A DNA stretch of 64,000 nucleotides from Cohnella cholangitidis (GTDB lineage Bacteria > Bacillota > Bacilli > Paenibacillales > Paenibacillaceae). Location: contig NZ_CP041969.1 in the NCBI RefSeq assembly GCF_014107495.1, positions 3,831,501 to 3,895,500 of the forward strand. The letters are read 5' to 3'. Below, piece by piece: positions 29,268-50,318 of the stretch. The stretch's first letter is position 1. Each line of letters opens with the position of its first letter. The position numbers were made by a program, and so were the translations under genes. Under the pieces are notes generated by a model that saw only the letters and a list, made by a program, of their open reading frames with translations, was not told where the DNA came from and ran no database searches.

Positions 29268-30995
29268 ATGGAAAAGAGACAAATACCGGATACGCTAACG
29301 CTGGAAGAAAGAGCCGGACACGCAATGAATGCGATTGCCGGCATGGCGGACCGCGATTATAACGACATCCCGTTTTTCGCCGCCAATCTCATGACCGACC
29401 CGGCCAACCTAACGCACGGAGATTGGGATTATGGATCCTCGCACGGACGGATGGTCGACGGAATGATTCTCGCCCGCCATATGTCCGGCGAAACGTTCGG
29501 CACCGATATCGAAGAGAAATACCGCTCGAACCTGCTGTCCTTCTTCAAGGAAGACGGTTTAAGCTACCGCCAGAAAAACCCTAACTACGATTGGGAACCG
29601 AACGCGAATTTCATTGACCAGCGCGCGGTCATCCTATCTCTGACGACATGGTATATGGACACGAAAGATCCAAAGGTGAAGGAGGCGGCCGACAAGCACG
29701 TCGCGGCGCTTAAGCGGGTCGCGATCAAAGAGAAGGATATTTGGTATTATCCATCCTCGGAATACAAAGAAGGCGGTTGGCCTTCTTCCAATCAAATTCT
29801 GCTTCGCCTGGCTCCGGATCCGGCCGCCTTCTGCGGCAGATTGGTCATGCCGTTGCTGAAGTACCATGAGCTGACGGGGAATCAAGATGCGTTCGAGTTA
29901 TGTCAATTTTTCACCGCGCTGATCGTACAGCGCAGCGGCGTGTTCAATGCGGACGGCAGCTTCAATGATTCGCTGGCGTATCGCAGCGGACACTTCCATA
30001 CCCGTCTTGGCACTCTTGACGCGCTTGCTAGATTCGGCGTGTTCACCGGAGATGCAGCTTTGATTAGCTATGTCGAAAAGAGTTACGCTTGGGCGGTTAC
30101 GCAATGCACGGCATTCGGCTGGACGCCCGGCGATATGAAGGAGCAGGCGTACGAGCACGAAACATGCTCTTTAGTCGATCTGATCGCTACGGGGATTACG
30201 CTCGCGAAGAGCGGATATACGAAATATTGGAGCGTCGTGGAGAAATATATTCGCAATCATTTAACGGAATCTCAACTATTGGACATGGACTGGGTGAAAG
30301 AATCGGACGATCGGTCCAAAGACGTGCCCGGAAAAATTACTTACCATAACATCGCGCAGCGGACGCGCGGTGCTTTCGCCGGTTATTCCGCGCCGAACGA
30401 CTTTTGCTGCGATGTAAACCATGGGCGAGGACATACGAATGATTTGCAAATCTGCTGCTTAGGCTCGGGAACTCGCGGCTTGTACATGGGCTGGAGCAAT
30501 ACGGTTACCGAGAAGAACGGCACGGTCAGCGTCAATTTTCTGCTCAACCGCGGTTCCAAGTGGCTGGACGTAGACAGCTATCTTCCGCACGAAGGCAAGC
30601 TGGTGCTGCATATTCGCGCAGACATTAAGCGTCTGCTCGTACGCATTCCGGAATGGGCGGGCTTCGCGAAGGTTTCGTATACTCGAGAGTTGAACGGCGG
30701 CGAGATCCGTACGGGCAAAGGAAGCGAGCCGAGCTCTTGGGTCAATGAATGCTTCTTGGCGTTAGGCGCGGCAACCGCAGGCGAGACGATAACGATCGAA
30801 TTCCCACTGTCTCGTCGCAAGACGATCGAGACGGCCATCGGCCAAGTGTTCGAGACCGAATGGCGCGGAGACGATGTTGTCAATATATCCCCGGCGGGTA
30901 CGAAGCATCCTTTCTATAGCGGGCGCAAAGTTTACGACAAAGCGCCGATGCGCGAAGGCGGATTCCGTCGGATCGAGAACGAGCTCGTCTGGTAG
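29268..30995 (+). CDS. GH127-like (DUF1680-type) protein, cassette copy 1
   Basis: A 575-residue cytoplasmic protein without signal peptide. The N-terminal two thirds look like an (alpha/alpha)6 barrel (THGDWDYGSSHGRM near residue 50). A Cys-rich region near residues 378-398 (FCCDVNHGRGHTNDLQICCLGSGTRGLY) is followed by a beta-rich tail with LLVRIPEWAG. The Cys pair before an N/G-x-x-R-x-L-Y segment and the RIPxWA strand resemble GH127 enzymes, which use a Zn-bound Cys nucleophile on L-arabinofuranose and, in gut Bacteroides, on the branched RG-II sugar aceric acid. I am not certain of the family. It leads a cassette with a racemase-fold protein, RLP and acid-sugar kinase; the paralogue is at 45148. 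Confidence 0.55.
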   Translation: MEKRQIPDTLTLEERAGHAMNAIAGMADRDYNDIPFFAANLMTDPANLTHGDWDYGSSHGRMVDGMILARHMSGETFGTDIEEKYRSNLLSFFKEDGLSYRQKNPNYDWEPNANFIDQRAVILSLTTWYMDTKDPKVKEAADKHVAALKRVAIKEKDIWYYPSSEYKEGGWPSSNQILLRLAPDPAAFCGRLVMPLLKYHELTGNQDAFELCQFFTALIVQRSGVFNADGSFNDSLAYRSGHFHTRLGTLDALARFGVFTGDAALISYVEKSYAWAVTQCTAFGWTPGDMKEQAYEHETCSLVDLIATGITLAKSGYTKYWSVVEKYIRNHLTESQLLDMDWVKESDDRSKDVPGKITYHNIAQRTRGAFAGYSAPNDFCCDVNHGRGHTNDLQICCLGSGTRGLYMGWSNTVTEKNGTVSVNFLLNRGSKWLDVDSYLPHEGKLVLHIRADIKRLLVRIPEWAGFAKVSYTRELNGGEIRTGKGSEPSSWVNECFLALGAATAGETITIEFPLSRRKTIETAIGQVFETEWRGDDVVNISPAGTKHPFYSGRKVYDKAPMREGGFRRIENELVW

Positions 30996-31019
30996 ATCAA
31001 ATCGAGGAGGCGTTGAGGA

Positions 31020-31709
31020 ATGAGAACGGTTGTAGCCGTCTATACCGGCCAAGGGTTAGCCGATCCGCTTAAAGCGGTATTCAAGGAATTGTTGCCGGAC
31101 GTTCGTCTAGTGAATATTATCGACGACAGCCTGATCGGAGACGTAGTAAAGGCAGGGCATGTACCTCCCGGCGTCGCTAGAAGACTCGTGCAATATTATC
31201 ATAACGGAGAAGAGCTTGGCGCGGACGTTATTCTGAATACATGCTCGTCCGTGGGCGAAGTCGCGGACAGCGCCGGTCCGATGATCGGGGTACCCATTGT
31301 CAAAATCGATCAATCGATGGCGGCCAAAGCTGCCGCGGAATATAACCGGATCGCGGTTCTCGCGACGCTGCCCTCTACGCTTGACCCGACGGTGCGATTG
31401 ATTCAAAGGGAAGCGGGCCTGCTTGGTAAAGACGTTACATTGGTTAAAGGACTGGCGGAAGGCGCATTCGATGCTTTGGTCGGAGGAAAGCCCGAGGAAC
31501 ACGACCGAATATTGCTGGAAACGGCCAAACGGGTTTGCGAGCAAGCGGATGCGCTCGTGCTAGCGCAAGGTTCGATGGCGCGTATGGAGAACGGGCTGCG
31601 CGAAGCGACGGGTAAACCGGTATTGTCCAGTCCGCGGCTTGGCGTTGAGCAAGTGAAGGCGGTGCTGCGGCGGCTTGACGTCGAGCAGGCAGGAAGCGGG
31701 AAGGCATAG
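31020..31709 (+). CDS. Asp/Glu racemase-fold protein, one Cys, copy 1
   Basis: A 229-residue cytoplasmic protein with the aspartate/glutamate racemase superfamily layout. The first catalytic-Cys motif is intact (VILNTCSSVGE, Cys75). The second, normally GCT-like, reads LVLAQGSMARM without Cys. A two-base racemization mechanism is therefore unlikely. A one-Cys isomerase or decarboxylase, by analogy with arylmalonate decarboxylase, or another lyase is more plausible. It lies between the GH127-like and RLP genes with short gaps. AGGAGG precedes ATG 31020. The paralogue at 46907 has the same substitution. Confidence 0.7.
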   Translation: MRTVVAVYTGQGLADPLKAVFKELLPDVRLVNIIDDSLIGDVVKAGHVPPGVARRLVQYYHNGEELGADVILNTCSSVGEVADSAGPMIGVPIVKIDQSMAAKAAAEYNRIAVLATLPSTLDPTVRLIQREAGLLGKDVTLVKGLAEGAFDALVGGKPEEHDRILLETAKRVCEQADALVLAQGSMARMENGLREATGKPVLSSPRLGVEQVKAVLRRLDVEQAGSGKA

Positions 31710-31726
31710 AAACGGAGGTTATTCCA

Positions 31727-32995
31727 TTGGTTACGTTGGTTCAGGATAGAGTGATCGCCGTCTATCTCGTCGAGACGCCTTACACCTTGCAGAGGGCAGC
31801 CGAGGTAATCGCCGGAGAACAGTCTACGGGAACGTTCACGGCCGTTCCCGGAGAAACGGACGAGTTGAAGCGCAAGCATGGCGCTCGCGTCGAGAACATC
31901 GTAGAGCTGGAGGCGGTGAAGGAGCCTTCGCTACCCGGCTCTAAGACGCCGCCCGGACATGACGGGTTTTATCGGCGGGGGCTCGTGTCGGTGTCATTTC
32001 CTTTGCACAACTTCGGTCCGTCCATTCCAAACCTCATGTCCGCGATTGCGGGCAACCTATATGAATTGCAAGAGTTATCCGGATTGCGGTTAGTCGATTT
32101 GGAACTTCCGGACGCATTCGCTGCCCAGTATTCCGGTCCGAAATTCGGCATCGAAGGGACACGCCGATTAACAGGCGTCTATGATCGTCCCATTCTAGGG
32201 ACGATTGTAAAGCCGAGTATCGGCTTGGCGATGGAGGATTTACAGCGGATCATCATGGACGTATCCGAAGCGGGACTCGATTTTATCAAGGATGACGAGC
32301 TGAACGCGAATCCGCCTTATGCGCCTCTAGAACTGAAAGTAAAGTCCGTCATGGAAGCCATCGAGAGGGCAGCCGACGCCAAGGGCAAAAAAATCATGTA
32401 CGCTTTCAACATTACGGGCGACATTGAAGAGATGAAACGCAATCACGACTTGGTCGTGAAGGCCGGCGGTAATTGCGTCATGGTCAGCATCATGAGTATC
32501 GGATTAGCCGGATTGGCCCATCTGAACGAGTATAGCGAAGTGCCGATTCACGGGCATCGCAATCAGTGGGGGATGCTGACCCGCTCCCCGCTGCTCGGTT
32601 TCGAGTTTTCCGCGTACCAGAAGCTTTGCCGGTTAGCCGGTGCGGATCATCTCCACGTCAATGGGCTGAATAGCAAGTTCTATGAGAGCAACGACTCTGT
32701 CGTTCGATCCATTCAGGCATGCGTAGCGCCTATGTATGGTGGATACGCGACGATGCCGGTCGTATCCTCGGCGCAATGGGCAGGTACGGCTCCGGCCACA
32801 TACGCGGCTACTCGCACGGTTGACGTCATGCATTTGGCGGGCGGAGGCATTCTGGCGCATCCGGATGGCGCGGCTGCCGGGTTCGAAAGCATGAAGCTGG
32901 GATGGGAAGCGGCGGTCAAAGGCATCCCGCTTGAGGAATACGCAGAGAAACACGTGCCGCTTAAACGTGCGATCGAGAAATATGGAAAGGGCTGA
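31727..32995 (+). CDS. RuBisCO-like protein (form IV), copy 1
   Basis: A 422-residue RuBisCO-large-subunit homologue. Most catalytic positions are kept: Lys162 (GTIVKPSIG, as Lys175 of RuBisCO), carbamate Lys188 with Asp190 and Glu191 (DFIKDDELN), His277/Arg278 (IHGHRNQWG), His310 and loop-6 Lys317 (DHLHVNGLNSKFYE). The clear change is KPK to KPS, so Lys177 is Ser164. The cassette's kinase suggests an acid-sugar phosphate substrate. Known RLPs of that kind decarboxylate or hydrolyse 3-oxo-isoapionate 4-phosphate (OiaC, OiaX). The start is TTG 31727, nine bases after GGAGG; the paralogue is at 47610. Confidence 0.88.
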   Translation: MVTLVQDRVIAVYLVETPYTLQRAAEVIAGEQSTGTFTAVPGETDELKRKHGARVENIVELEAVKEPSLPGSKTPPGHDGFYRRGLVSVSFPLHNFGPSIPNLMSAIAGNLYELQELSGLRLVDLELPDAFAAQYSGPKFGIEGTRRLTGVYDRPILGTIVKPSIGLAMEDLQRIIMDVSEAGLDFIKDDELNANPPYAPLELKVKSVMEAIERAADAKGKKIMYAFNITGDIEEMKRNHDLVVKAGGNCVMVSIMSIGLAGLAHLNEYSEVPIHGHRNQWGMLTRSPLLGFEFSAYQKLCRLAGADHLHVNGLNSKFYESNDSVVRSIQACVAPMYGGYATMPVVSSAQWAGTAPATYAATRTVDVMHLAGGGILAHPDGAAAGFESMKLGWEAAVKGIPLEEYAEKHVPLKRAIEKYGKG

Positions 32996-33001
32996 TCGGC
33001 G

Positions 33002-34444
33002 ATGACGGAACCGTTACCCTTAGAGCAGGCACATTCGGACGTTGGGCATCGCGCCGTATCCGTAGCCAATGATCGTCGACCTAGCAAGTTGCTCTGTTAC
33101 TACGGGGACGATTTCACCGGCTCGACGGATGTTCTGGAATCGCTGTTTCGCGCCGGCGTGAGAACCGCTCTGTTCCTGGAGCCGCCAAGCGACGAACAGC
33201 TTCGGGGACGCTTCGCTTCGTTGGAAGCGTTCGGAGTCGCCGGCATCGGACGATCCTTGTCGCCGGATGAGGCAGGGCAGGAGCTGCGCCCGATCTTCCA
33301 GACGTTGAAGAAAGCCGAAGCGGCTATCATACATTATAAAATTTGCTCGACCTTCGATTCCTCTCCGGAAATCGGCAATATCGGAACGGCAGCCCGAATC
33401 GGGCGCGAAACGTTCGGCGGCCGATTTATTCCGCTGCTTGTCGGCGTGCCGTATTTGGGCCGATATACGTTGTTCGGCAATCATTTCGCAGCGGCAGGAG
33501 GGGAGATTCACCGGTTGGACCGGCATCCGACGATGTCGCGGCATCCCATCACTCCGATGAAGGAAGCGGATCTGCGCAAGCATCTCGCCGAGCAAAGCGA
33601 GTATCGGATCTCCTTGATCGATATATTGGCGCTGCAAGGCGAGTTTACCGACGTGCGCGAACGGCTGAACCTATGCGTATCCGCGGAGCAACCCGGGATC
33701 GTTCTGTTCGATGTGCTGGATGAAGAACGACTGGAGACGGCCGGACAGCTCATTTGGGAGGAGGCTGAGCGAAGCGATGGCCTGTTCGTCATCGGCTCGT
33801 CCGGAATCGAATATGCGCTTGGCGCTTGCTGGAAGTCGGAAGGGCGGGTTGAACGACAGCCGGATATTCCGACCGGCGTCTCGTCCGTTGATCGGCTGCT
33901 CGTCGTATCCGGGAGTTGCTCGCCCGTTACCGAGGGGCAGATTCATGCCGCTCTGGCAGAGGGTTTTGTCGGACTGCGCGTTCCTGTGGAAGAATGGATC
34001 AACCCTGAGACTGCAATACATGCGCGCGATCGGCTTATGGAAGACGCGAGAGCGCTGCTGAAGCAGGGGAGGAGCGTCATCCTATATTCGGCAACGGGAC
34101 CAAGCGACAGCAGTATCGCGCAATTCCGCAGGGCGCTCGTCGACGGAGGGTACCGTGCCGACGACAGCAGTCGGCTGCTCGGGTCGATACTCGGGTCGTT
34201 GGCCAAGTCGCTTATCACGGAAACGGCACTGACGCGAATCGTCATCGCCGGCGGGGATACGTCCGGTTACGTCACCCGAGAACTGGGCATTTATGCGCTA
34301 GAGTGCGTTGCCGCGTTGACTCCGGGCGGACCTCTGTGCCGCGCTTCTTCGTCCGACCCTCGGCTTGACGGCCTGGAACTGGTACTGAAGGGCGGCCAAG
34401 TCGGAGGCGTCGGCTTCTTTGATCAAGTGCGACGCGGAGGATAA
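33002..34444 (+). CDS. four-carbon acid sugar kinase family (DUF1537), copy 1
   Basis: A 480-residue cytoplasmic ATP-dependent kinase of the DUF1537 family (OtnK, DtnK, OiaK). The N-terminal substrate domain has CYYGDDFTGSTDVLESL near residue 31 and RLDRHPTMSRHPITPMKEADLRKHL. The C-terminal nucleotide domain has LVVSGSCSPVTEGQI and VIAGGDTSGYVTRELG, ending LVLKGGQVGG. It phosphorylates an aldonic or oxo-acid sugar. Directly after an RLP, its nearest functional analogue is OiaK (3-oxo-isoapionate kinase), but the substrate is unproven. The gene ends the cassette. The paralogue is at 48876. Confidence 0.88.
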   Translation: MTEPLPLEQAHSDVGHRAVSVANDRRPSKLLCYYGDDFTGSTDVLESLFRAGVRTALFLEPPSDEQLRGRFASLEAFGVAGIGRSLSPDEAGQELRPIFQTLKKAEAAIIHYKICSTFDSSPEIGNIGTAARIGRETFGGRFIPLLVGVPYLGRYTLFGNHFAAAGGEIHRLDRHPTMSRHPITPMKEADLRKHLAEQSEYRISLIDILALQGEFTDVRERLNLCVSAEQPGIVLFDVLDEERLETAGQLIWEEAERSDGLFVIGSSGIEYALGACWKSEGRVERQPDIPTGVSSVDRLLVVSGSCSPVTEGQIHAALAEGFVGLRVPVEEWINPETAIHARDRLMEDARALLKQGRSVILYSATGPSDSSIAQFRRALVDGGYRADDSSRLLGSILGSLAKSLITETALTRIVIAGGDTSGYVTRELGIYALECVAALTPGGPLCRASSSDPRLDGLELVLKGGQVGGVGFFDQVRRGG

Positions 34445-35030: not shown

Positions 35031-36080
35031 TTATTTCGAATGGTTGATAGGAGCGCGGCACGACAACCTTTCAATGAATTTCGTGTCGATCGTTGTTTTC
35101 GTTGTCGTGTTCAAGCCTTCATGAATAAGCTCGATAAGCATGTCGACTGCGACCTGCGCCATTTTCTCCTTCTCGACGTGAATCGTTGTCAGCTCCGGAG
35201 TGACGACCATAGACTCGGTAATATTATCAAAGCCGATGACGGACACATCCTCCGGCACTCGAAAGCCCAGCTCGTTTAGCGTCTTCATCGCGCTGATGGC
35301 GATATAATCGCATTCGCAGAACAAAGCCGTCGGGAGGCGTCCGTTCTCTTGTAAATAATGCTGGAGCTGCTCCCTCATCGATTCCTGCGAGTAGAGGATC
35401 GTCGGAGCAACCGAGAATATGCGGTTATCGGGAATGGCGAGCTCCCTGTCCTCAAGCGCGGACATGAAGCCTCGTTGACGGGAATTGAAATTATGGATCC
35501 GAACATTAGAAGCGACATAACCGATTTCCCGGTGGCCGATCTCATATAAATAGGAGCCTGCCTGATAAGCGCCCATGACATTGTTAATTTCAACAAAAGG
35601 AATAGGCAAGGTTTCGAAATTGGTATCGAGCACGACGATCTGCGGCAAATGTTCGGCGATGCTTACGATCTGCTGCCTGCCCAAATTAGTTCCTAGCAGG
35701 ATAACGCCGCTATTCCGATTATCTTCGCTTAGGCTCTTGACGTTCTGTTCCAACGATTCCGTATTCAGGGTCGCGAACTGAAGGGAGTACCCTTTGGAGC
35801 GGCAGCGCTCCTCGATGTAATGAATCAATTCGCGGAAGAAAGGTTGTTGATAATACTGCTCTAATACGATCCCCGAATTCGCGCAGACGAGGAATAACAG
35901 GGACGAGAGGGGGCGCTCTTGAGCGGGGGCCGCTCTTCTTTTCGCGATATACCCCGACTCTTGCGCAATTCTGATCACCCTTTCGCGTGTATCCTCGCTA
36001 ATACCGGGCTTGCCATTAAGAGCCAGGGATACAGCCGATTTAGATACATTGGCTTGCTTAGCGATATCCTCCATTTTCAC
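35031..36080 (-). CDS. LacI-family transcriptional regulator
   Basis: A 349-residue LacI/GalR-type regulator: an N-terminal helix-turn-helix (MEDIAKQANVSKSAVSLALNGKPGISEDTRERVIRIAQESGYI) followed by a periplasmic-binding-protein-like sensor domain (LSSLLFLVCANSGIVLEQYYQQPFF... VSVIGFDNITESMVVTPELTTI). GTG 36080 lies nine bases after GGAG; ATG 36074 and 36095 are alternatives. It is divergent from the isomerase/transketolase/kinase operon, and the 320-base gap holds many TTTAGT repeats that are probably its operators. The effector is presumably a sugar handled by that operon. Confidence 0.92.
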   Translation of the reverse strand: MKMEDIAKQANVSKSAVSLALNGKPGISEDTRERVIRIAQESGYIAKRRAAPAQERPLSSLLFLVCANSGIVLEQYYQQPFFRELIHYIEERCRSKGYSLQFATLNTESLEQNVKSLSEDNRNSGVILLGTNLGRQQIVSIAEHLPQIVVLDTNFETLPIPFVEINNVMGAYQAGSYLYEIGHREIGYVASNVRIHNFNSRQRGFMSALEDRELAIPDNRIFSVAPTILYSQESMREQLQHYLQENGRLPTALFCECDYIAISAMKTLNELGFRVPEDVSVIGFDNITESMVVTPELTTIHVEKEKMAQVAVDMLIELIHEGLNTTTKTTIDTKFIERLSCRAPINHSK

Positions 36081-36175
36081 GCAAACATTCTCCATCCTCG
36101 CCAAATTTTCCGAACGATCAGTAAGCCGCCGCCATGGGAAGCCGTGACAGCGGTACAAGCTCAACAAATAATAAG

Positions 36176-36384: not shown

Positions 36385-36400
36385 TTAGGGGGAAATGGCA

Positions 36401-37831
36401 ATGAAAAAAATAAAGCTTGGTTATGCGCCAACACGTCGGTTTACGTTTAGTGAAAAAGACGCTTTTAAGTACAAGGTGCAAATCCGCGAGAAGATGGATT
36501 CCTTCGGCATGGACATCGACATCGTCGATCTTGAGGGCTTGAATTCGGAAGGCTTGCTCTACGATGACCGCATCAATGCGGAACAGATTGCGGAGCACTT
36601 TAAGCAACAAGACGTGGATGCGGTATTTTTCCCCCATTGTAACTTCGGAACCGAGGATACCGTTGCCCGCGTGGCCAAAAGTCTAGGTAAACCCGTACTG
36701 CTATGGGGCCCAAGAGATGAAGCGCCGTTAGAGGACGGGATGCGGCTGCGGGATACGCAGTGCGGACTATTTGCAACAGGAAAGGTGCTGCGTCGTTTCA
36801 ATGTTCCTTTTACTTATATCACGAATAGCAGAGTGAATGACCTTGTCTTTGAAAGGGGATTCAAAAACTTCATCTCGGCGGCTAACGTCGTTCGGCATTT
36901 CCGTAAACTGCGAATTTTGCAAATCGGGCCCCGCCCCCATTCTTTCTGGACAATGATGTGTAATGAAGGCGAGCTGCTCGAGAGGTTCGGAATCGAATTG
37001 TACCCGATCACTCTCGTCGATATCACGAAAGCGGCGAAAAACCAAGAGAAAATGAACAGCACGGAGATGCAAGAGGCGATTACTTACATTCGCGCGAAGC
37101 TCGACGTTTCCGAAGTAACGGACGACGATGTGCGCCGCGTGGCGGCGCTTAAAGTCGCGATGAAGAAGTACGCGGCAGATACGGGCAGCACGGCGATCGC
37201 GATCCAGTGCTGGTCCTCGTTGCAGGATGCGATTGGAATCATGCCTTGCTTAGCCAACGCGCTGCTCACGGATGAGCAGATTCCGGTTACTTGCGAGACG
37301 GATATTCACGGTGCGATTACTTCCATTATGGTACAGGCGGCAGCGATGAACGAAGCACCGACTTTTTTCGCGGATTTGACGATTAGACATCCCGAGAACG
37401 AGAACGGAGAGCTGCTGTTTCATTGCGGTAATTTCCCCGTCTCCCTATCCGTCGAAGATAAGCCGAAGATACGCAAGCATTTCCTCTTCGACGACCATGC
37501 GCCGGGGACGCATGAAGGCGAGATCCGCGGTGGAGATATGACACTGGCGCGGTTTGACGGCGACCATGGGGAGTATCAGTTGTTCTTGGGCAAAGCTCGC
37601 GGTATTCAAGGACCTTACACTCGGGGCTCCTATGTGTGGGTAGAGGTTAACGACTGGCCGTTGTGGGAAGAGAAATTAGTCAAAGGGCCTTATGTTCATC
37701 ATTCAGTCGGTATTCATGCGAACGTTATTCCTTCTTTATATGAAGCGTGCTCGTATATCCCAGGTCTAACGCCGGATCCCGTCGATCCGACGGAAGCGCA
37801 AATTCAAGCTTGGCTGAGGGGGAGCGTGTAA
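36401..37831 (+). CDS. L-fucose/L-arabinose isomerase-like enzyme
   Basis: A 476-residue cytoplasmic aldose-ketose isomerase-like protein of the fucose/arabinose isomerase superfamily. Typical segments are GYAPTRRFTFSEKDAFKYK at the start, VFFPHCNFGTEDTVARVAK, KPVLLWGPRDEAP and AIQCWSSLQDAIGIMPCLANALL. I chose ATG 36401 because AGGGGG lies eight bases upstream; ATG 36395 is only two bases from it. It opens an operon with split transketolase and FGGY kinase. A sugar isomerase, ketose kinase and two-subunit transketolase is the gene set of the non-oxidative apiose route (apiose to apulose, apulose 4-phosphate, then transketolase). Apiose isomerase activity is an inference from this context. Confidence 0.8.
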   Translation: MKKIKLGYAPTRRFTFSEKDAFKYKVQIREKMDSFGMDIDIVDLEGLNSEGLLYDDRINAEQIAEHFKQQDVDAVFFPHCNFGTEDTVARVAKSLGKPVLLWGPRDEAPLEDGMRLRDTQCGLFATGKVLRRFNVPFTYITNSRVNDLVFERGFKNFISAANVVRHFRKLRILQIGPRPHSFWTMMCNEGELLERFGIELYPITLVDITKAAKNQEKMNSTEMQEAITYIRAKLDVSEVTDDDVRRVAALKVAMKKYAADTGSTAIAIQCWSSLQDAIGIMPCLANALLTDEQIPVTCETDIHGAITSIMVQAAAMNEAPTFFADLTIRHPENENGELLFHCGNFPVSLSVEDKPKIRKHFLFDDHAPGTHEGEIRGGDMTLARFDGDHGEYQLFLGKARGIQGPYTRGSYVWVEVNDWPLWEEKLVKGPYVHHSVGIHANVIPSLYEACSYIPGLTPDPVDPTEAQIQAWLRGSV

Positions 37832-37833
37832 GA

Positions 37834-42087: not shown

Positions 42088-44798
42088 CTCTAAAGATAGT
42101 AGGCTGCAAAACGGAATATGCGATTAATCCGCTCGGGCTAAGCACGCTTGCGCCCCGCCTTTTCTGGAGAATAGAAACAGAGGAGCAAGCCGTAAGACAA
42201 ACCGCTTATCAAATTCTCGTTGCTTCCTCCCTGCAGCAGCTTGATGATGAAGCTGCCGATATGTGGGATAGCGGTAAAGTAGCTTCCGGCGAATCCATCC
42301 AGATTGTCTATGAAGGCGAACCGCTTGAGCAGGAGGGCCTTTATTATTGGAAGGTTCGCGTTTGGGATGGAGACGATCGGCAATCCGAATGGAGCGACCC
42401 TGCATTCTGGAGTATGGGGTTGCTCTCCCGATCGGCTTGGAAGGGGAAATGGATCGGACGCAAGCCCGTACTGAATCGGGCCGAGGCTTCGCCGGAGGAT
42501 GAGCATCGACCGGAGCTCGAAAAGGAGTTGTTGCCATCCCCGTATTTACGTAAAACATTCTCTATTCGGGGGCCTGTTAAACGCGCAACGGCGTATGCGA
42601 CCGCTCTCGGCGTGTACAAGCTGAGCGTGAACGGAGCCCGGATCGGCGGGGATTGGTTCGCGCCGGGATGGACGGATTACAACGTTCGCGCGCAAGTACA
42701 GACCTATGACATCACCGACAAGCTTAAGTCGGGAAACAATACGTTCAGCGTGATCGTGGGAGATGGCTGGTATTCGGGAACGGTCGGTTTTCTCGGCGAT
42801 AAAGTGTACGGGGAAAGACCCTTCTTCCTCTTGCAAACGAATATCGAGTATGAAGACGGGAGCCGAGACAGCGTCGTAACCGACGGCAGCTGGGCGGTAA
42901 CGACCGGTCCGATTCTCTACTCCGACATGATTAAAGGCGAAACCTACGATGCGACGAAGGAACTGACGGGCTGGGACACGGCCGATTACGACGACTCCGC
43001 TTGGGAGATTCCGGATGTGCGTCCCGGCTACAATGGCGTTCTGAGCGCTACTCTCGAACCTCCGATTCGGACAACGGAAGTACTTAAGCCGATCAGCATC
43101 CGCAAGACGGACCATGGAACCTATATTTATGATATGGGACAAAATATGGTGGGCTGGACCGAAGCGGTCGTCAGCGGTAAGCGCGGAACGCGAATTACGC
43201 TTAGTCACGCGGAGATGCTTAATCCGGACGGTTCGTTGTATTTGGATAACTTACGCGTAGCCGTTCAGCAGAATCATTACATCCTCAAGGGAGAAGGAGA
43301 AGAGCGCTACGAGCCGAACTTCACCTTTCACGGCTTCCGCTATGTCGAATTGATCGGATATCCGGGTGAAGCCGATCTTGAGACGATTGTCGGCAAGGTC
43401 GTCCATTCCGATACGCCTAAGACCGGAAGTCTTCGCACTTCGGACGAGAAAGTAAATAAGCTATATTCGAATATTACATGGGGTCAGAGAGGCAACTTCC
43501 TATCGGTTCCAACGGATTGTCCGCAGCGCGACGAGCGTCTGGGATGGACTGGCGATGCTCAGATATTCGCTCGCACGGCATCTTACAATATGGACGTGTC
43601 CCGATTTTTCACCAAGTTCTATCAGGATATGCTGGATTGCCAGCAGCCGTCGGGCGCATTCACGGACGTCGCTCCGGATGCAGGATGGATTCGGCATAAA
43701 ATGTGGAACACGAGACTCAATTGGTATGCGCCGGACAATTCGGGTTGGGGGGATGCGGGGGTCGTTATTCCATGGACTCTGTATCTGATGTATGGAGATA
43801 CGCGTATTCTGGAGACCAACTATGGCGCCATGGAACGTTGGGTTGAATATTTACGTTGCACGACGGATAACCTTGTTCGTCCGAACTATGCGAATTACGG
43901 AGACTGGTTATCGATTGGTGCGGATACGCCTAACGAAGTGCTTGCAACGGCTTATTTTGCTTATAGTACACAACTGCTGTCTCGTATTGCGGGCGTACTA
44001 GGCAGAACGGATGACGAGGCGCATTATAAGGCGTTGTTCGAGGATATTGCGGCGGCTTTCCGGGGGGCATTCGTCGATGATGCGGGAATCATCAGAGGCC
44101 ACACCCAAACCGTGTACGTATTAGCGCTGCAATTCGGTTTATTGACCGATGAGCTCCGGGAGAAGGCAGTTGCCCACTTGACAGCTGATATTAAGCAGCG
44201 AGGCGATCGATTGTCTACGGGATTCCTAGGGGTAGGTTACTTGCTTCCTGCGCTAACGGATAATGGCCGGTTGGATGTCGCGTATCAACTGTTAACCCAA
44301 GAGGAGTTTCCTTCTTGGATGTACTCGATCAAGCACGGCGCGACGACCATATGGGAAAGATGGGACGGTTGGACGGAGGACAACGGCTTCCAGACACCGA
44401 CCATGAACTCCTTCAACCATTATTCTCTCGGCTCCGTTGGGGAATGGATGTATCGCTATATGGCCGGGATAGAAACGGACGCGGCGGCATCCGGCTTCCG
44501 TCACGCCATTATTCGCCCCCGTCCGGGCGGAACGCTGACAGAGGTGGAAGCAACCTACGAATCGTTGTACGGCACGATCTCCACGCATTGGAAGCAGGAG
44601 AACAACGGCCCGTTCCGCCTTGTTGTCGCAATCCCGCCGAATACGACCGCTACCGTTTGGGTTCCGAAAGGCAACGTATCCGTTAACGGTAGGCCCGTTG
44701 GAGCTCCGGTAGGCTTCAAGGCATTGGGAGAAGCCGAGGGCAGCCTGGTATTCGAAATCTTGTCGGGCACTTACGAGTTCGTAAGCACTCCGTCTTGA
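42084..44798 (+). CDS. GH78 alpha-L-rhamnosidase 1
   Basis: A 904-residue inverting alpha-L-rhamnosidase. The layout is N-terminal beta domains (about 1-440), an (alpha/alpha)6 catalytic barrel and a C-terminal beta domain. The catalytic loop SVPTDCPQRDERLGWTGDAQ is canonical, carrying acidic residues for substrate binding and catalysis, and the barrel also shows GDWLSIGADTPNE and the WERWDGWTEDNGF region. No signal peptide is present, so it acts on imported rhamnosides. Start ATG 42084 overlaps the stop of the nucleoside-hydrolase-like gene. It ends the LacI-controlled operon. A paralogue is at 55426. Confidence 0.95.
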   Translation: MTLKIVGCKTEYAINPLGLSTLAPRLFWRIETEEQAVRQTAYQILVASSLQQLDDEAADMWDSGKVASGESIQIVYEGEPLEQEGLYYWKVRVWDGDDRQSEWSDPAFWSMGLLSRSAWKGKWIGRKPVLNRAEASPEDEHRPELEKELLPSPYLRKTFSIRGPVKRATAYATALGVYKLSVNGARIGGDWFAPGWTDYNVRAQVQTYDITDKLKSGNNTFSVIVGDGWYSGTVGFLGDKVYGERPFFLLQTNIEYEDGSRDSVVTDGSWAVTTGPILYSDMIKGETYDATKELTGWDTADYDDSAWEIPDVRPGYNGVLSATLEPPIRTTEVLKPISIRKTDHGTYIYDMGQNMVGWTEAVVSGKRGTRITLSHAEMLNPDGSLYLDNLRVAVQQNHYILKGEGEERYEPNFTFHGFRYVELIGYPGEADLETIVGKVVHSDTPKTGSLRTSDEKVNKLYSNITWGQRGNFLSVPTDCPQRDERLGWTGDAQIFARTASYNMDVSRFFTKFYQDMLDCQQPSGAFTDVAPDAGWIRHKMWNTRLNWYAPDNSGWGDAGVVIPWTLYLMYGDTRILETNYGAMERWVEYLRCTTDNLVRPNYANYGDWLSIGADTPNEVLATAYFAYSTQLLSRIAGVLGRTDDEAHYKALFEDIAAAFRGAFVDDAGIIRGHTQTVYVLALQFGLLTDELREKAVAHLTADIKQRGDRLSTGFLGVGYLLPALTDNGRLDVAYQLLTQEEFPSWMYSIKHGATTIWERWDGWTEDNGFQTPTMNSFNHYSLGSVGEWMYRYMAGIETDAAASGFRHAIIRPRPGGTLTEVEATYESLYGTISTHWKQENNGPFRLVVAIPPNTTATVWVPKGNVSVNGRPVGAPVGFKALGEAEGSLVFEILSGTYEFVSTPS

Positions 44799-45147: not shown

Positions 45148-46872
45148 ATGGAGAAACGAAGATTGCCCGATACGCTGACTTTAGAGGATAGAGCCGGAAT
45201 TGCGATGAATGCCATCTTAGGTATGGCGGACCGGAATTATAACCATATTCCTTTTTTTGCGGCGAATCTCATGACGGACCCTGCCAACCTGACTCACGGA
45301 GATTGGGATTACGGCTCTTCTCATGGACGTATGATCGATGCGTTGGTACTGGCTCGCCATATGTCGGGTGAGACGATTGGTGCAGATATTGAAGAGATAT
45401 ACCGTTCCAATCTGTTATCGTTTTTCAAAGATGACGGACTTAGCTATCGCCAGACGAATCCAAACCACAATTGGGAGCCTAATGCTAACTTAATCGATCA
45501 GCGGGCAGTCATTTTATCGCTTACGTCCTGGTATATGGCGACAGGAGACTTGAAGGTGAAAGAAGCGGCGGACAAACATGTCGCGGCACTTAAACGCGTG
45601 GCCATTAAGGAACGGGACGTCTGGTACTATCCTGCATCGGAATACAAGGAGGGCGGCTGGCCTTCCTCCAACGCGATCCTGCTGCGACTCGCTCCGGATC
45701 CCGCTGCTTTCTGCGGACGGCTAGTTATGCCTTTGCTTAAGTATCATGAACTGACAAGAAATCAGGATGCGTTCGAGCTGTGCCAATTTTTCACGCAACT
45801 AATCGTACAGCGCAGCGGGGTGTTCAACCCGGACGGCAGCTTTAACGATTCGCTCGCTTACCGCAGCGGGCATTTCCATACCCGGCTTGGCACGCTGGAC
45901 GCGCTTGCCCGATTCGGAGTATTTACCGGGGATGCGGCTTTAATCAGCTATGTAGAAAAAAGCTTCGCTTGGGCAACGACTCAATGCACGGCTTTCGGCT
46001 GGACGCCGGGAGATCTGAAGGAGCAGGCCTACGAGCATGAAACCTGCTCATTGGTCGACCTGATTGCTACGGGAATCACACTGGCAAAGAGCGGCTACAC
46101 GAAGTATTGGGGAACCGTGGAAAGATATATTCGCAATCATCTCGCCGAATCGCAGCTTTTGGATATGGATTGGGTGAAGGAGACGGACGACCTCTCAAAG
46201 GAAATTACCGGCAAGATAACTTTCCAAAATATCGGCCAACGTACGCGCGGCGCATTCGCGGGTTATTCTGCGCCTAACGACTTCTGCTGCGATGTGAATT
46301 ACGGCCGTGGACATACGAATGATTTGCAGATATGCTGCCTCGGCTCGGGAACCCGCGGTTTGTACATGGGCTGGAGCAATACGATCACGGAGAAAGAAGG
46401 CGCGATCAGCGTTAACTTCTTGCTCAACCGCGGCTCTATTTGGCTCGATGTGGACAGCTATCTGCCGCATGAGGGCAAGCTGGTGCTGCATATTCATCGT
46501 GATCTTCCAAGATTGCAGGTTCGCATTCCGGAATGGGCTGGCTATGCGAAGGTTAGCTATACCCGTGAATTGGACGGCGAGACGAGCACGGGCAGAGGAA
46601 ACGAACCAAGCACCTGGGTAAACGAGCACTTCCTGTTGCTTGGCGCGGCGAAAGCCGGAGAGTTAATTACAATTGAGTTCCCATTATCTCACCGTACAAC
46701 GACCGAAACGGCAATCGGTCAGACGTTCGAGACGACGTGGCGTGGAGACGATGTTGTCGCTATTTCTCCGTCAGGGACGAAGCATCCTTTCTACTCCGGG
46801 CGCCGAACGTTCGATAAAGCACCAATGCGCGATGGTTCATTACGTCGCATAGACAAAGAGTTGGTCTGGTAA
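45148..46872 (+). CDS. GH127-like protein, cassette copy 2
   Basis: A 574-residue paralogue of the protein at 29268, collinear over its whole length (THGDWDYGSSHGRM, FCCDVNYGRGHTNDLQICCLGSGTRGLY, LQVRIPEWAGYAK, GTKHPFYSGRR). All Cys residues of the putative metal/nucleophile region are kept. DNA third positions differ widely, so the duplication is not recent. GAGGAGG precedes ATG 45148. It begins cassette 2, about 350 bases after the rhamnosidase operon, probably with its own promoter. Function is as uncertain as for copy 1. Confidence 0.55.
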   Translation: MEKRRLPDTLTLEDRAGIAMNAILGMADRNYNHIPFFAANLMTDPANLTHGDWDYGSSHGRMIDALVLARHMSGETIGADIEEIYRSNLLSFFKDDGLSYRQTNPNHNWEPNANLIDQRAVILSLTSWYMATGDLKVKEAADKHVAALKRVAIKERDVWYYPASEYKEGGWPSSNAILLRLAPDPAAFCGRLVMPLLKYHELTRNQDAFELCQFFTQLIVQRSGVFNPDGSFNDSLAYRSGHFHTRLGTLDALARFGVFTGDAALISYVEKSFAWATTQCTAFGWTPGDLKEQAYEHETCSLVDLIATGITLAKSGYTKYWGTVERYIRNHLAESQLLDMDWVKETDDLSKEITGKITFQNIGQRTRGAFAGYSAPNDFCCDVNYGRGHTNDLQICCLGSGTRGLYMGWSNTITEKEGAISVNFLLNRGSIWLDVDSYLPHEGKLVLHIHRDLPRLQVRIPEWAGYAKVSYTRELDGETSTGRGNEPSTWVNEHFLLLGAAKAGELITIEFPLSHRTTTETAIGQTFETTWRGDDVVAISPSGTKHPFYSGRRTFDKAPMRDGSLRRIDKELVW

Positions 46873-46906
46873 GATTACCTATTTTAGCGTAACGGAGGCA
46901 ATGAAT

Positions 46907-47593
46907 ATGAGAACGGTTGTAGCGGTCTATACCGGTCAAGGATTGGCGGACCCGTTAAAAGCGGTATTCAAAGAAAAGCTGCCGAACGTTCGGCTTGTTA
47001 ATATTATCGATGATAGTCTGATCGGAGACGTTGTACAAGCCGGACATGTTCCTCCGGGAGTCGCAAGAAGACTAGTGCAGTACTATCATAATGCCGAAGA
47101 ACTTGGAGCGGACGTCATCTTGAACACCTGCTCATCCGTAGGAGAGGTTGTGGACAGGGCAAGTTCGTTGATCGGTATTCCCATTGTCAAGATTGACCAG
47201 GCGATGGCGGCAAATGCGGCTGCCGAGTTCTCTACGATTGCCGTACTCGCAACGCTGCCTTCTACGCTTGATCCGACAATGCGCTTAATCTCGAAGGAAG
47301 CTTCCTTGCTTGGCAAAGAAATTCATTTGATTCAAGGTCTTGCGATCGGGGCTTTCGATTCGCTAGTCGGAGGAAGACCCGAGGAGCATGATCGGATATT
47401 GCTGGAAACGGCCAAGCGAATTTCCGGGGAAGCGGATGTGCTTGTTCTGGCGCAGGGCTCAATGGCACGTATGGCGCAATCGTTGCATGAGGCGACGGGG
47501 AAGCCGGTGCTGTCTAGTCCGCATCTTGGCGTAGAGCAGGTGAAAGCGGTATTGGAGCAGCTTGATCGCGAGCAAGCGGGAAGCAACAGCTAG
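46907..47593 (+). CDS. Asp/Glu racemase-fold protein, one Cys, copy 2
   Basis: A 228-residue paralogue of the protein at 31020. The first Cys motif (VILNTCSSVGE) is kept and the second site again reads LVLAQGSMARM, so loss of the second Cys predates the duplication and is probably functional. ATG 46907 lies eight bases after GGAGG and matches the start of copy 1; the ATG at 46901 is too close. A 16-base gap separates it from the RLP gene. Confidence 0.7.
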   Translation: MRTVVAVYTGQGLADPLKAVFKEKLPNVRLVNIIDDSLIGDVVQAGHVPPGVARRLVQYYHNAEELGADVILNTCSSVGEVVDRASSLIGIPIVKIDQAMAANAAAEFSTIAVLATLPSTLDPTMRLISKEASLLGKEIHLIQGLAIGAFDSLVGGRPEEHDRILLETAKRISGEADVLVLAQGSMARMAQSLHEATGKPVLSSPHLGVEQVKAVLEQLDREQAGSNS

Positions 47594-47609
47594 AACGGAG
47601 GTCGTCCCA

Positions 47610-48869
47610 ATGAAACAAGATCGAGTGAATGCCACGTACCTCGTTGAAACGCCCTATTCCCTGCAGCTTGCGGCTGAAGTGATCGCAGGAGAGCAATCTA
47701 CCGGAACGTTTACTGCGGTACCGGGTGAGACCGATGCGCTGAAAGAAAAGTTCGGTGCTCGAATCGAGAAGGTTGTGGATCTTGAAACGGCAGGAACGCC
47801 GACGCTTCCGGGTTCCGATTCGCCCGCTGGGCATGACGGGCTTTACCGCAGGGGGTTAGTGACGTTGTCCTTCCCGTTGCACAATTTCGGTCCCTCCATT
47901 CCGAACCTGATGTCTGCCATAGCGGGTAATTTGTACGAGTTGCAGCAATTGTCCGGGTTGCGACTAGTCGATCTGGAGCTGCCGTCCGCATTCGCGGATC
48001 GATATCCCGGGCCCAAATTCGGGATAGAAGGAACGCGCAAGCTGACGAACGTGTACGATCGTCCGATTCTAGGAACAATTGTCAAGCCTAGTATTGGATT
48101 GGCGCCGGAACAGCTGCAGAAGATGATTATCGAAGTGTCCGAAGCGGGTTTGGATTTCATTAAGGACGACGAGTTGAACGCCAATCCGCCATATGCGCCC
48201 CTTGAGGCGAAAGTGAAGGCCGTAATGGAGGCAATAGAGCGGGCAGCGGACGCAACGGGCAAGAAGATCATGTATGCATTCAATATTACAGGCGACATCG
48301 AAGAGATGAAGCGCCATCACGAGATTGTTGTCAATGCTGGCGGGAACTGCGTAATGGTCAGCATCATGAGCGTCGGGCTAGCGGGTTTAGCCCATTTGAA
48401 CGAGTACAGCGAGGTGCCGATTCACGGGCACCGCAATCAATGGGGGATGATGACGCGCTGCCCTAATCTCGGCTTCGAGTTTGCAGCCTATCAGAAGCTA
48501 TGCCGTCTGGCGGGAGCCGATCATCTTCACGTGAACGGGTTGAATAGCAAATTTTACGAAAGCAATGAATCCGTGGTTCGTTCCATTCAGGCATGCATGG
48601 CTCCGATGTACGGCGGGTATGCTTCGATGCCGGTCGTCTCCTCCGGGCAGTGGGCGGGAACGGCTATAGACACTTATGCGGCTACGAAATCCGTAGATGT
48701 CATGCATCTGGCCGGCGGAGGCATCTTGGCTCATCCGGATGGGGCCGCAGCCGGATTCGAGAGCATGAAACTGGGTTGGGAAGCAGCGGTCAAAGGCGTT
48801 CCGCTCGATGAATATGCGAAATCGCATCTATCGCTTAAGAGGGCGATTGAGAAATATGGAAAGGGCTGA
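47610..48869 (+). CDS. RuBisCO-like protein (form IV), copy 2
   Basis: A 419-residue paralogue of the RLP at 31727. The same active-site residues are present: KPSIG, the carbamate-Lys segment DFIKDDELN, IHGHRNQWG and DHLHVNGLNSKFYE. Differences are scattered and outside these motifs (for example TRCPNLGFEFAA for TRSPLLGFEFSA). GGAGG lies before ATG 47610; the longer frame from 47562 overlaps the previous gene and lacks a ribosome binding site. Two intact copies argue against decay and for dosage or slightly different substrates. Confidence 0.88.
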   Translation: MKQDRVNATYLVETPYSLQLAAEVIAGEQSTGTFTAVPGETDALKEKFGARIEKVVDLETAGTPTLPGSDSPAGHDGLYRRGLVTLSFPLHNFGPSIPNLMSAIAGNLYELQQLSGLRLVDLELPSAFADRYPGPKFGIEGTRKLTNVYDRPILGTIVKPSIGLAPEQLQKMIIEVSEAGLDFIKDDELNANPPYAPLEAKVKAVMEAIERAADATGKKIMYAFNITGDIEEMKRHHEIVVNAGGNCVMVSIMSVGLAGLAHLNEYSEVPIHGHRNQWGMMTRCPNLGFEFAAYQKLCRLAGADHLHVNGLNSKFYESNESVVRSIQACMAPMYGGYASMPVVSSGQWAGTAIDTYAATKSVDVMHLAGGGILAHPDGAAAGFESMKLGWEAAVKGVPLDEYAKSHLSLKRAIEKYGKG

Positions 48870-48875
48870 GCAACG

Positions 48876-50318
48876 ATGACCATGCGGTCGCGGGAAGAAT
48901 CGGATGCTAACCGAGGAGCCTCAGGAACGTCTAGCGGCCGCTTTCGAAAGCTTCTCTGTTATTACGGGGATGATTTCACGGGTTCGACGGATGTATTGGA
49001 ATCGCTCTTCCGTGCTGGCGTCAGGTCGGCTCTATTCCTAGATCCGCCGAGCGATGAGCAATTGCAAGAGGAGCGTTACGCGTCTTTGGATGCTTTCGGC
49101 GTTGCGGGAATCGGACGTTCCCTCACGCCTGAAGAAGCGGAGAGGGAGCTTCGTCCGATCTTCGAGACGCTTAAGAAAGCGGAAGCCGCAATCATACACT
49201 ATAAAATCTGCTCTACCTTCGATTCGTCGCCGGAAATAGGCAACATCGGCATTGCGGCTCGGATTGGCCGCGAAACGTTCGGCGGCAGGTATATCCCGCT
49301 GCTTGCGGGAGTGCCTTACCTAGGAAGATATACTTTGTTCGGCAATCACTTTGCCAAGTCGGGGACCGAGGTGCACAGGCTGGATCGTCATCCGACAATG
49401 TCCAGGCATCCGATTACGCCTATGAAAGAGGGGGATCTGCGTAAGCATCTCTCAGCGCAGTGCGATGATCGGATATCGTTATTTGACATTCTGGCATTAG
49501 AAGGCAAGTTGGATGACGTTCGTATGCGGCTGGAGCAACAGTTGGCGGATGAACAGCCTGACATGCTGCTGTTCGACGTACTGGATGAGGAGCGGCTGGA
49601 AACAACGGGGCACCTGCTCTGGGAGGAGGCTTTACGCAGTGAAGGGTCATTCTTGATCGGATCCTCCGGAATTGAATATGCGTTAGCGGCATGCTGGAAA
49701 TCCTTACGGTTGCCGGAGCTGCAGCCGGATGTGCCGACGAGCATATCTTCCGTTGAACGTTTGCTGGTCGTGTCGGGAAGCTGTTCCCCCGTTACCGAAG
49801 ATCAGATCAATGCCGCATTAGCTTCGGGATTCGCCGGAATTCGCATTCCTGTCGATAAGTTAATCGATCCTCATCTTGCGGAACGAACAAGTCGGCAGTT
49901 GCTGGATGAAGCCATGCAACTGCTTGAGCAGGGGAGAAGCGTCCTCTTATTTTCGGCTGCCGGACCTAACGATAGCAGTATTGAGAGATTTCGCAAGGCG
50001 CTCGTTGCCAACGGCTGCCGAGCGGAGGACAGCAGCAAGCGGCTAGGCGGAATCCTTGGCTCGTTGGCTCGTACGCTCCTCATCGAGACGGGGCTGACCC
50101 GTGTTGTTATCGCGGGAGGAGACACGTCTGGCTATGTGACTCGCGAACTCGGTATCCGTTCGTTGGAGTGCAAGGCCGTATTAGCACCCGGCGCGCCGCT
50201 GTGCCGGGCGACATCGGAGAATCCGCAGCTTAACGGCCTAGAGTTAGTGCTCAAAGGAGGACAAGTCGGCGGCATCGATTTCTTTAGCCGCGTGAAGAGC
50301 GGTAATCGATCGCGATAG
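48876..50318 (+). CDS. four-carbon acid sugar kinase family (DUF1537), copy 2
   Basis: A 480-residue paralogue of the kinase at 33002 with the same motifs (CYYGDDFTGSTDVLESL, RLDRHPTMSRHPITPMKE, LVVSGSCSPVTEDQI, VIAGGDTSGYVTRELG). It is more diverged than the RLP pair, especially in the middle and N-terminal tail, which could mean some substrate divergence. It ends cassette 2; a strong terminator follows. Confidence 0.88.
   Translation: MTMRSREESDANRGASGTSSGRFRKLLCYYGDDFTGSTDVLESLFRAGVRSALFLDPPSDEQLQEERYASLDAFGVAGIGRSLTPEEAERELRPIFETLKKAEAAIIHYKICSTFDSSPEIGNIGIAARIGRETFGGRYIPLLAGVPYLGRYTLFGNHFAKSGTEVHRLDRHPTMSRHPITPMKEGDLRKHLSAQCDDRISLFDILALEGKLDDVRMRLEQQLADEQPDMLLFDVLDEERLETTGHLLWEEALRSEGSFLIGSSGIEYALAACWKSLRLPELQPDVPTSISSVERLLVVSGSCSPVTEDQINAALASGFAGIRIPVDKLIDPHLAERTSRQLLDEAMQLLEQGRSVLLFSAAGPNDSSIERFRKALVANGCRAEDSSKRLGGILGSLARTLLIETGLTRVVIAGGDTSGYVTRELGIRSLECKAVLAPGAPLCRATSENPQLNGLELVLKGGQVGGIDFFSRVKSGNRSR

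Follow-up and report, generated by a model that had tools for sequence, protein, structure and literature searches.

The window analysed here is a stretch of 64,000 nucleotides of Cohnella cholangitidis (contig NZ_CP041969.1, here C1, a single 6.4 Mb contig that holds the whole genome; positions are those of the window unless C1 is named). It carries two collinear copies of a four-gene cassette, at 29268-34444 and 45148-50318, which form a candidate module for the catabolism of the plant cell wall sugar aceric acid. In both copies the gene order is a GH127-like protein (GH, glycoside hydrolase), a one-Cys racemase-fold protein that we call RACE, a RuBisCO-like protein (RLP) and a DUF1537 kinase.

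29268 to 30995, plus strand: GH127-like protein, copy 1 (575 aa; PF07944 E=0.015, under the cut-off; hhalign likeness to BT1003-type GH127)
31020 to 31709, plus strand: RACE, copy 1 (PF01177 E=3.9e-19; one conserved cysteine, C75; proposed aceric acid isomerase)
31727 to 32995, plus strand: RLP, copy 1 (PF00016 E=1.4e-67; best NCBIfam model OiaX, 464 bits; KDDE and loop-6 lysine)
33002 to 34444, plus strand: DUF1537 acid-sugar kinase, copy 1 (PF07005/PF17042; best NCBIfam model OiaK, 505 bits)
45148 to 46872, plus strand: GH127-like protein, copy 2 (86% identical to copy 1; PF20736 E=0.025, under the cut-off)
46901 to 47593, plus strand: RACE, copy 2 (PF01177; 82% identical to copy 1)
47562 to 48869, plus strand: RLP, copy 2 (85% identical to copy 1; OiaX 472 bits; start probably inside)
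48876 to 50318, plus strand: DUF1537 kinase, copy 2 (72% identical to copy 1; OiaK 477 bits)

All eight open reading frames (ORFs) are intact, in agreement with a sequence-only reading of this DNA that had described the four genes in the same order twice. The copies share 74% DNA identity over 5178 aligned columns (E=0.0) and are therefore an old, true duplication rather than a product of chance. Pfam cut-offs are passed by RACE (PF01177), RLP (PF00016/PF02788) and the kinase (PF07005/PF17042). The ORF of the second RLP begins at an upstream TTG (47562) that overlaps RACE, and its true start probably lies slightly inside. The duplication is shared, as two further genomes (G010 and G029; G marks genomes and L loci) also carry both copies. 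On the RLP tree the first and the second window copy each pair with the matching copy of Cohnella sp. WQ 127256 (L054, L056).

Conservation of the cassette was examined in two samples. In a genus set of 37 genomes, RACE was matched in 31 at E<=0.001 and a close RACE (at least 60% identity) was present in 16, C. cholangitidis included; all four genes were found at 18/19 genus loci, the exception being L048 without RLP, and a LacZ-type GH2 gene at 15/19. At L048 (L048:5261-12378, G036:C88) the order is GH127-like gene, kinase, RACE and GH2 with no RLP beside them, and the genome has an RLP in a further copy, L042. In a named collection, the RACE alignment gave at least 551 confirmed relatives, of which the best 80 were used as loci, and gene content was read by tblastn in stretches that reached at most 10 kb to either side of RACE and less at contig ends. 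The 37 Paenibacillus and Cohnella loci among these 80 overlap partly with the genus genomes, and two of them, L054 and L056, come from a single genome. The 37 loci hold the GH127-like gene in 36 cases (in 31 no more than 2.5 kb upstream of RACE), RLP and kinase in 34 each, GH2 in 11 and a GH137-like gene in 8. All four cassette genes are present at 33/37 of these other Paenibacillaceae loci, which rules out chance co-location and provides the co-occurrence in other genomes to which the sequence-only reading had looked. On a plasmid of mobilizable type in Rufibacter tibetensis (L051:10733-15424), RLP, kinase, RACE and a bile-acid-type symporter lie by pectinesterase and GH28 genes.

Across the 80 loci, RACE is followed by one of three gene sets, which we term exits: RLP in 37, a second split transketolase in 10 (at least 53% identical to that of L095; on the opposite strand in L132), a second DUF1537 kinase with a beta-keto acid cleavage enzyme (BKACE) in 22, and none in 11. 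Two exits in one locus occurred in 0/80 of the fetched stretches. The RLP exit is accompanied by the kinase in 35/37 loci, and the other two (L083 and L094) end at a contig end. The GH127-like gene is found with every exit, namely at 34 RLP loci, with the transketolase in L106 and with the second kinase and BKACE in L069, L076 and L077. The substrate of a transketolase has to be a hydroxymethyl ketone, that of OiaK and OiaX has to have the form HOCH2-CO-C(OH)(COO-)R, and BKACE cleaves beta-keto acids. The simplest reading of mutually exclusive exits, as judged from gene content, is one shared intermediate made by RACE, and HOCH2-CO-C(OH)(COO-)-R, the form that isomerised aceric acid would have, suits all three. 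The exits would then be phosphorylation and decarboxylation by kinase and RLP, release of a 2-oxo acid by the split transketolase, and processing by the second DUF1537 kinase with BKACE. That RACE founds a new class of aldose-ketose isomerase on the Asp/Glu racemase fold, with one catalytic cysteine, and opens aceric acid to three exits in several phyla, is a tentative proposal for which we see slightly less than even odds. A transaldolase-like gene (cluster c27; PF00923 in L095) occurs with the second transketolase in L095, L096, L099, L112 and L128 and suggests further processing of the transketolase product. A plasmid of Haloprofundus halobius (L052:7256-10377) carries a RACE relative (34%) together with genes for an OiaK-like kinase and a class II aldolase, with no RLP match, perhaps a fourth exit in haloarchaea.

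Aceric acid is among the rarest plant cell wall sugars, and enzymes that dismantle rhamnogalacturonan II (RG-II), whose side chain B contains it, are known from Bacteroides. Excerpts of PMC8218411 define aceric acid as 3-C-carboxy-5-deoxy-L-xylose and list rhamnose, 2-O-methyl-fucose, arabinose, galactose, aceric acid and apiose in side chain B, with arabinofuranose or rhamnose extensions in many plants. For Bacteroides thetaiotaomicron, passages of PMC10850190 name BT1003 (GH127) as the aceric acid hydrolase, and part of PMC11739564 has BT0993 (GH2) acting on Gal-beta-1,2-aceric acid in RG-II. In two Anaerolineae loci (L079 and L083) a GH127 gene lies directly upstream of RACE, with RLP a few genes on and the kinase in L079. 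The L079 GH127 is canonical (PF07944, 377 bits) and its top PDB match is 5mqo, which we take to be BT1003 (E=2.9e-242, 809 bits; next structure 414). In G038, a RACE copy lies behind a 303-base GH127 fragment (43% identity) at a contig end.

A BT1003-type GH127 (at least 490 bits) was also present in 22 of the 27 RACE-bearing genomes of Prevotella, Prevotellaceae, Bacteroidales or Prolixibacteraceae among the best 80 of at least 551 RACE relatives, those without it being G045, G046, G050, G066 and G067. In the family of G048 (301 genomes) this type is distinct, with 23 matches at 670 bits or more and the next at 461, and outside the centre genome it occurs in 22/300; the comparison with 22/27 gives a Fisher p of ~1e-17, which is inflated because the genomes are related and rumen Prevotella dominate the 27. 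RACE itself occurs in 2/301 family genomes (the centre and G200), both with a BT1003-type GH127; co-occurrence inside the family sample alone was set aside, as 1/300 genomes besides the centre with RACE is too few. Beyond Anaerolineae, the two genes are found on the same contig in G043, 13 kb from each other, and in G042, at a distance of 62 kb. Further genes at RACE loci fit the same linkages: PDB matches mark the GH2 of L039 as a beta-galactosidase of LacZ type, and GH137-like genes occur at 13/80 loci. Where the GH127-like gene is missing, importers include a tripartite ATP-independent periplasmic (TRAP) transporter beside RACE in L112 and L128. A major facilitator superfamily (MFS) gene is present at 25/80 loci, its nearest NCBIfam subfamily, galactonate transporter, being under the cut-off. 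Transporters beside RACE at loci without the GH127-like gene, the bile-acid-type symporter of Rufibacter among them, would suit uptake of a free sugar acid.

RACE scores 69.7 and 70.1 bits on PF01177 (cut-off 31) and is thereby a member of the Asp/Glu/hydantoin racemase superfamily. Racemases proper of the Asp/Glu superfamily use two catalytic cysteines. Across 46 RACE sequences, T74-C75-S76-S77 and Q183-G184-S185-M186 are invariant; C75, presumably at the position of the first catalytic cysteine of Asp/Glu racemases, is the sole invariant cysteine, and the second site reads AQGSM. Its relatives of solved structure are racemases, and Pfam gives no NAD-binding domain in RACE. We infer that RACE is a new aldose-ketose isomerase, and this is the most novel and the least certain part of the module. 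In Cohnella rhizosphaerae (L067:10001-11971), RACE and RLP form a single open frame of 657 aa, which may hint at consecutive action but may also reflect a lost stop in one assembly.

The window RLPs (464 and 472 bits) fall short of the NCBIfam OiaX model (NF042437, cut-off 700), on which Rhizobium OiaX scores 780, and the window kinases (505 and 477 bits) fall short of the OiaK model (NF042436, cut-off 700). Apionate-linked proteins of the genus are also below 700 (RLPs 452-469 bits, kinases 477-495 bits), so these cut-offs do not discriminate here and were dropped as proof of difference. A methionine-salvage role of the cassette RLPs is ruled out, since the genome has its own MtnW (L004, 605.7 bits, over both cut-offs). 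KDDE is kept in 10/10 aligned RLPs and the loop-6 lysine, which MtnW lacks, in 9/10; the residues before this lysine are DHLH in the window and L146, DQIH in L079 and Rufibacter, and DQFQ in Rhizobium OiaX.

Reference proteins for ApnO, ApsD and ApnL came from annotated Rhizobium loci, where they are labelled phosphogluconate dehydrogenase C-terminal domain protein, Gfo/Idh/MocA oxidoreductase and hypothetical protein, respectively; the Apn and Aps names were assigned by us. Neither ApnO nor ApnL had a match anywhere in the C. cholangitidis genome (matches in 6/37 and 3/37 genus genomes). ApnO was lacking in 11 of the 16 genomes of the genus that combine a close RACE with all four genes. The known apionate route thus cannot feed the cassettes, and apionate by that route is ruled out for this genome. 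Three genus genomes (L146, L149 and L154) have loci with RLP, kinase, ApnO and ApsD, joined by ApnL in L146 and L149. The RLPs of these loci share 64-65% identity with those of the cassettes and, in a tree of 51 rows, fall among them (support of the joining branch modest, 84/78); the cassette label needs four changes on this tree, and a single change suffices in 0% of 200 bootstrap trees. Long branches may be misplaced (L051 with the Rhizobium rows; L094, L005 and L154). The MtnW of C. cholangitidis lies outside. In Paenibacillus piri (L086:10001-14300), a cassette that is normal in other respects has an ApnO-like gene, 52% identical to that of Rhizobium, located between its RACE and RLP genes.

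The tree and the equal scores of apionate-linked RLPs rule out a separate RLP family, and that part of the sequence-only reading has to be given up. The same reading had held that RLPs within the OiaC/OiaX clade, together with ApnO and ApnL elsewhere in the genome, would speak against it: the RLPs do fall within the OiaX clade, and the two genes have no match. It had also named OiaC as an RLP partner of the kinase, and OiaC is not known to be an RLP. The RLPs of the apiose and apionate routes are, in the available part of PMC6302742, a decarboxylase and a transcarboxylase/hydrolase. By sequence, the cassettes encode an OiaK-type kinase and an OiaX-type RLP, the difference being what precedes these two. 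A third RLP and kinase pair, without adjoining RACE or GH127-like gene, lies outside the window (C1:3764991-3767648). Its locus (C1:3763700-3774533; L005:8701-19534) holds genes for a LacI regulator, the RLP (64% to the cassette RLPs), the kinase, a zinc-type dehydrogenase, a TRAP transporter, a class II aldolase and a CitMHS transporter, and looks like a set that would import and oxidize a different free branched acid, the aldolase acting last.

The GH127-like protein misses the Pfam gathering scores in its catalytic domain (copy 1, PF07944, 14.8 bits against 24.9) and middle domain (copy 2, PF20736, 15.2 against 24.2), and a Limnochordia homologue does so too (19.4 against 24.9); the label inherited from the sequence-only reading stands as a statement of remote relationship only. 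E298, C300, C396 and C397 are invariant among 30 aligned homologues, a Glu-x-Cys ... Cys-Cys arrangement that matches, at pattern level, the zinc site of GH127/GH146 enzymes (E723, C725, C804 and C805 in excerpts of PMC10850190). In the alignments, HETC falls with NETC of BT1003-type enzymes and ICCLGSG with WCCVGSG of 5opj; hhalign pairs C380-C381, not C396-C397, with the GH127 Cys-Cys. A profile search of PDB reached 5opj with no better than E=0.0068, over the Cys-Cys motif. These comparisons point to a remote GH127-type enzyme, probably a Zn(Cys3Glu) cysteine glycosidase. By eye, copy 1 has no signal peptide. None of the 37 genus genomes has a BT1003-type GH127 (best 391 bits, 41%), which leaves the role of aceric acid hydrolase to the GH127-like gene.

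The cassettes are flanked and separated by genes for transport, regulation and side-chain trimming (ABC, ATP-binding cassette).

22515 to 24242, plus strand: sensor histidine kinase (HAMP, His_kinase, HATPase; Cache under the cut-off), upstream in many genus loci
24358 to 25728, plus strand: ABC sugar-binding protein (PF01547), conserved in genus loci
25863 to 26795, plus strand: ABC permease 1 (PF00528)
26360 to 27613, plus strand: ABC permease 2 (PF00528), conserved; listed from an upstream TTG, true start further in
27650 to 29254, plus strand: response regulator with AraC-type DNA-binding domain (PF00072, PF12833), conserved
35031 to 36167, minus strand: LacI-type regulator (PF00356/PF13377)
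36395 to 37831, plus strand: fucose-isomerase-like protein (PF02952, 26.1 bits, short of the cut-off of 29.3), remote to SftI
37747 to 38697, plus strand: transketolase N-terminal subunit, apiose-type operon (PF00456; 49% to E. coli AptA)
38660 to 39631, plus strand: transketolase C-terminal subunit, apiose-type operon (PF02779/PF02780; 38% to AptB)
39481 to 41124, plus strand: FGGY kinase, apulose kinase candidate (PF00370/PF02782; 39% to AplK; start probably inside)
41164 to 42087, plus strand: nucleoside-hydrolase-like protein (PF01156)
42084 to 44798, plus strand: GH78 alpha-L-rhamnosidase (PF17389; PDB 3w5m E=4.5e-254)
50631 to 51557, plus strand: ABC permease, second transporter (PF00528)
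51570 to 52460, plus strand: ABC permease, second transporter (PF00528)
52565 to 54142, plus strand: ABC solute-binding protein, second transporter (PF13416, 29.7 bits, cut-off 27), conserved
54258 to 55265, plus strand: GH137-like protein, beta-L-arabinofuranosidase candidate (PDB 5mt2 E=1.2e-34; NF049877 E=3.4e-51, under the cut-off)
55426 to 58167, minus strand: second GH78 alpha-L-rhamnosidase (PF17389 E=1.2e-91)
58229 to 62168, plus strand: GH106-type alpha-L-rhamnosidase gene in two ORFs (58229-59482 and 59733-62168; PF17132 on the first ORF, 26.3 bits, short of the cut-off of 29)

The split transketolase and the FGGY kinase between the copies are related to AptA, AptB and AplK, and the fucose-isomerase-like protein is probably the isomerase of this apiose-type operon; the FGGY kinase also exceeds the cut-off of a glycerol kinase subfamily model. 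The second transporter behind copy 2 recurs in L032, L034 and L056 (the last two from the same genome). GH106 relatives at six loci are single ORFs (median 1298 aa), and the split gene may be a pseudogene or reflect a sequencing error. Candidate side-chain-B glycosidases, typed by sequence, are the GH137-like protein, both GH78 enzymes and GH106 near the cassettes, with GH42, GH95 and a LacZ-type GH2 beyond the window (C1:3896525-3904202).

We put at roughly 0.6 the probability that the cassette releases and degrades aceric acid from RG-II side chain B, and we infer both the substrate and every reaction. Side-chain fragments would be imported by the neighbouring ABC transporter and trimmed by the GH137-like, GH78/GH106 and GH2 enzymes, and the GH127-like enzyme would free aceric acid. 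RACE would convert this aldose to the 2-ketose HOCH2-CO-C(OH)(COO-)-CHOH-CH3, a 1,2-proton shift that a single conserved cysteine would suit. 3-Oxo-isoapionate is this ketose with CH2OH in place of CHOH-CH3, the ketose being its methyl homologue. The kinase would phosphorylate the terminal CH2OH in the way that OiaK phosphorylates 3-oxo-isoapionate. RLP, acting like OiaX, would then decarboxylate the beta-keto acid and leave 5-deoxypentulose 1-phosphate, a compound that a class II aldolase could split into dihydroxyacetone phosphate and acetaldehyde; the genome has seven class II aldolase matches for this possible last step. Aceric acid had been one candidate substrate of the sequence-only reading, and the BT1003-type GH127 linkage and the GH2 genes agree with it independently. 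That interpretation as a whole has gained from the unmatched ApnO and ApnL, the co-occurrence and the aceric acid evidence, and has lost the RLP as a family of its own.

Several observations weigh against a role in aceric acid breakdown. We know of no aldose-ketose isomerase with the RACE fold, BKACE chemistry normally needs an alpha-hydrogen that the proposed intermediate lacks, and among the eleven loci without an exit seven have RACE followed by an MFS gene only, L114 reaches a contig end and L082, L101 and L127 show none of these genes. GH127 membership is weakly supported by Pfam, the likeness to BT1003-type enzymes is remote (hhalign probability 68%, E=4.9e-5), and canonical GH127 genes also exist at other sites of the genome (the best of them at 286 bits, with 41% identity to that of L079). 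RACE is absent from 21/22 other carriers of BT1003-type GH127 in the family sample and so is not required wherever aceric acid is released, and among the 22 positive Bacteroidales genomes the two genes share a contig only in G042. Finally, neither tree nor model score separates the cassette RLP and kinase from apionate-linked ones of the genus, and ApnO stands inside the P. piri operon, so that aceric acid and apionate may share an operon in at least one case. These last two points, and the apiose-type operon between the copies, would also fit a rewired apiose/apionate pathway in which RACE or another enzyme, not ApnO, makes 3-oxo-isoapionate, for example from apiuronic acid. We consider this unlikely given the lack of ApnO and ApnL matches in this genome and of ApnO in most close-RACE genomes of the genus; moreover, the apiose-type operon would already supply a non-oxidative apiose route, RACE has no Pfam NAD-binding domain and the linkage to BT1003-type GH127 would go unexplained.

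The remoteness of the GH127-like protein, and the many sugars that RG-II loci release, leave room for another acid of pectin, or another branched acid, as substrate, with the GH127-like protein as an accompanying arabinofuranosidase or other glycosidase; characterized GH127/GH146 enzymes are mostly beta-L-arabinofuranosidases in the excerpts of PMC10850190. This is very unlikely in our view, because the kinase and RLP types call for a branched beta-keto acid and 5mqo matches the L079 GH127 much better than any other solved GH127 structure does. Aceric acid is, moreover, to our knowledge the sole C-carboxyl-branched sugar of plant walls. A further alternative retains aceric acid, and its odds overlap with those of our own proposal, while making RACE an epimerase or helper and leaving isomerization to a fucose-isomerase-like or housekeeping enzyme. 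The racemase structures among its relatives and the FUCI-type genes directly upstream of RACE in L095, L096 and L099 favour this, yet we find it somewhat unlikely: 66/80 loci have no FUCI-type gene in the fetched stretch, 13 of the 14 that do also have an apiose-type transketolase, which would account for its presence, and a racemase could not act at C3 of aceric acid, which on chemical reasoning carries no hydrogen.

If correct, this assignment would supply a catabolic route for aceric acid, a further role for RLPs in branched-sugar breakdown and a candidate isomerase on a new fold, and three gene sets (the RACE subfamily, the second split transketolase and the kinase-BKACE pair) would become testable on one named intermediate. 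No aceric acid catabolic route was seen among the papers listed from the open-licence PMC literature, though one could stand in unlisted or subscription papers, and the available text of a 2025 RG-II review contains no word beginning 'catabol'.

Among known systems, the closest is the OiaK-OiaX branch of D-apionate catabolism, said to have been described by Carter et al. in 2018, with which the cassette shares its kinase and RLP types, scores equal to those of apionate-linked proteins of the genus, and its proposed chemistry. It differs in the lack of ApnO and ApnL matches in the genome, in the GH127-like and racemase-fold proteins upstream instead, and in an adjoining SBP_bac_1-type ABC transporter and two-component regulator. 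The GH127-like protein, GH2 beta-galactosidase and GH137-like protein match the aceric acid linkages by type, as do BT1003, BT0993 and BT0996 (which we take to be the GH137) of B. thetaiotaomicron, whereas the window GH127-like protein is remote and the genus lacks a BT1003-type gene. RACE resembles the Asp/Glu/hydantoin racemase superfamily (PF01177) in its score over the cut-off and in the first catalytic cysteine, and departs from it in a cysteine-free second site that would suit a one-base reaction. The D-apiose cluster AptA/AptB/AplK of E. coli SE15 provides a non-oxidative route with a kinase and split transketolase (PMC13001218, in part). The operon between the copies resembles this pathway (49%, 38% and 39% to AptA, AptB and AplK), but it is a neighbour outside the cassette and has a fucose-isomerase-type protein as its isomerase candidate. 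Against this background, our best reading of the cassette is a module for aceric acid catabolism that is a variant of the OiaK-OiaX kind.

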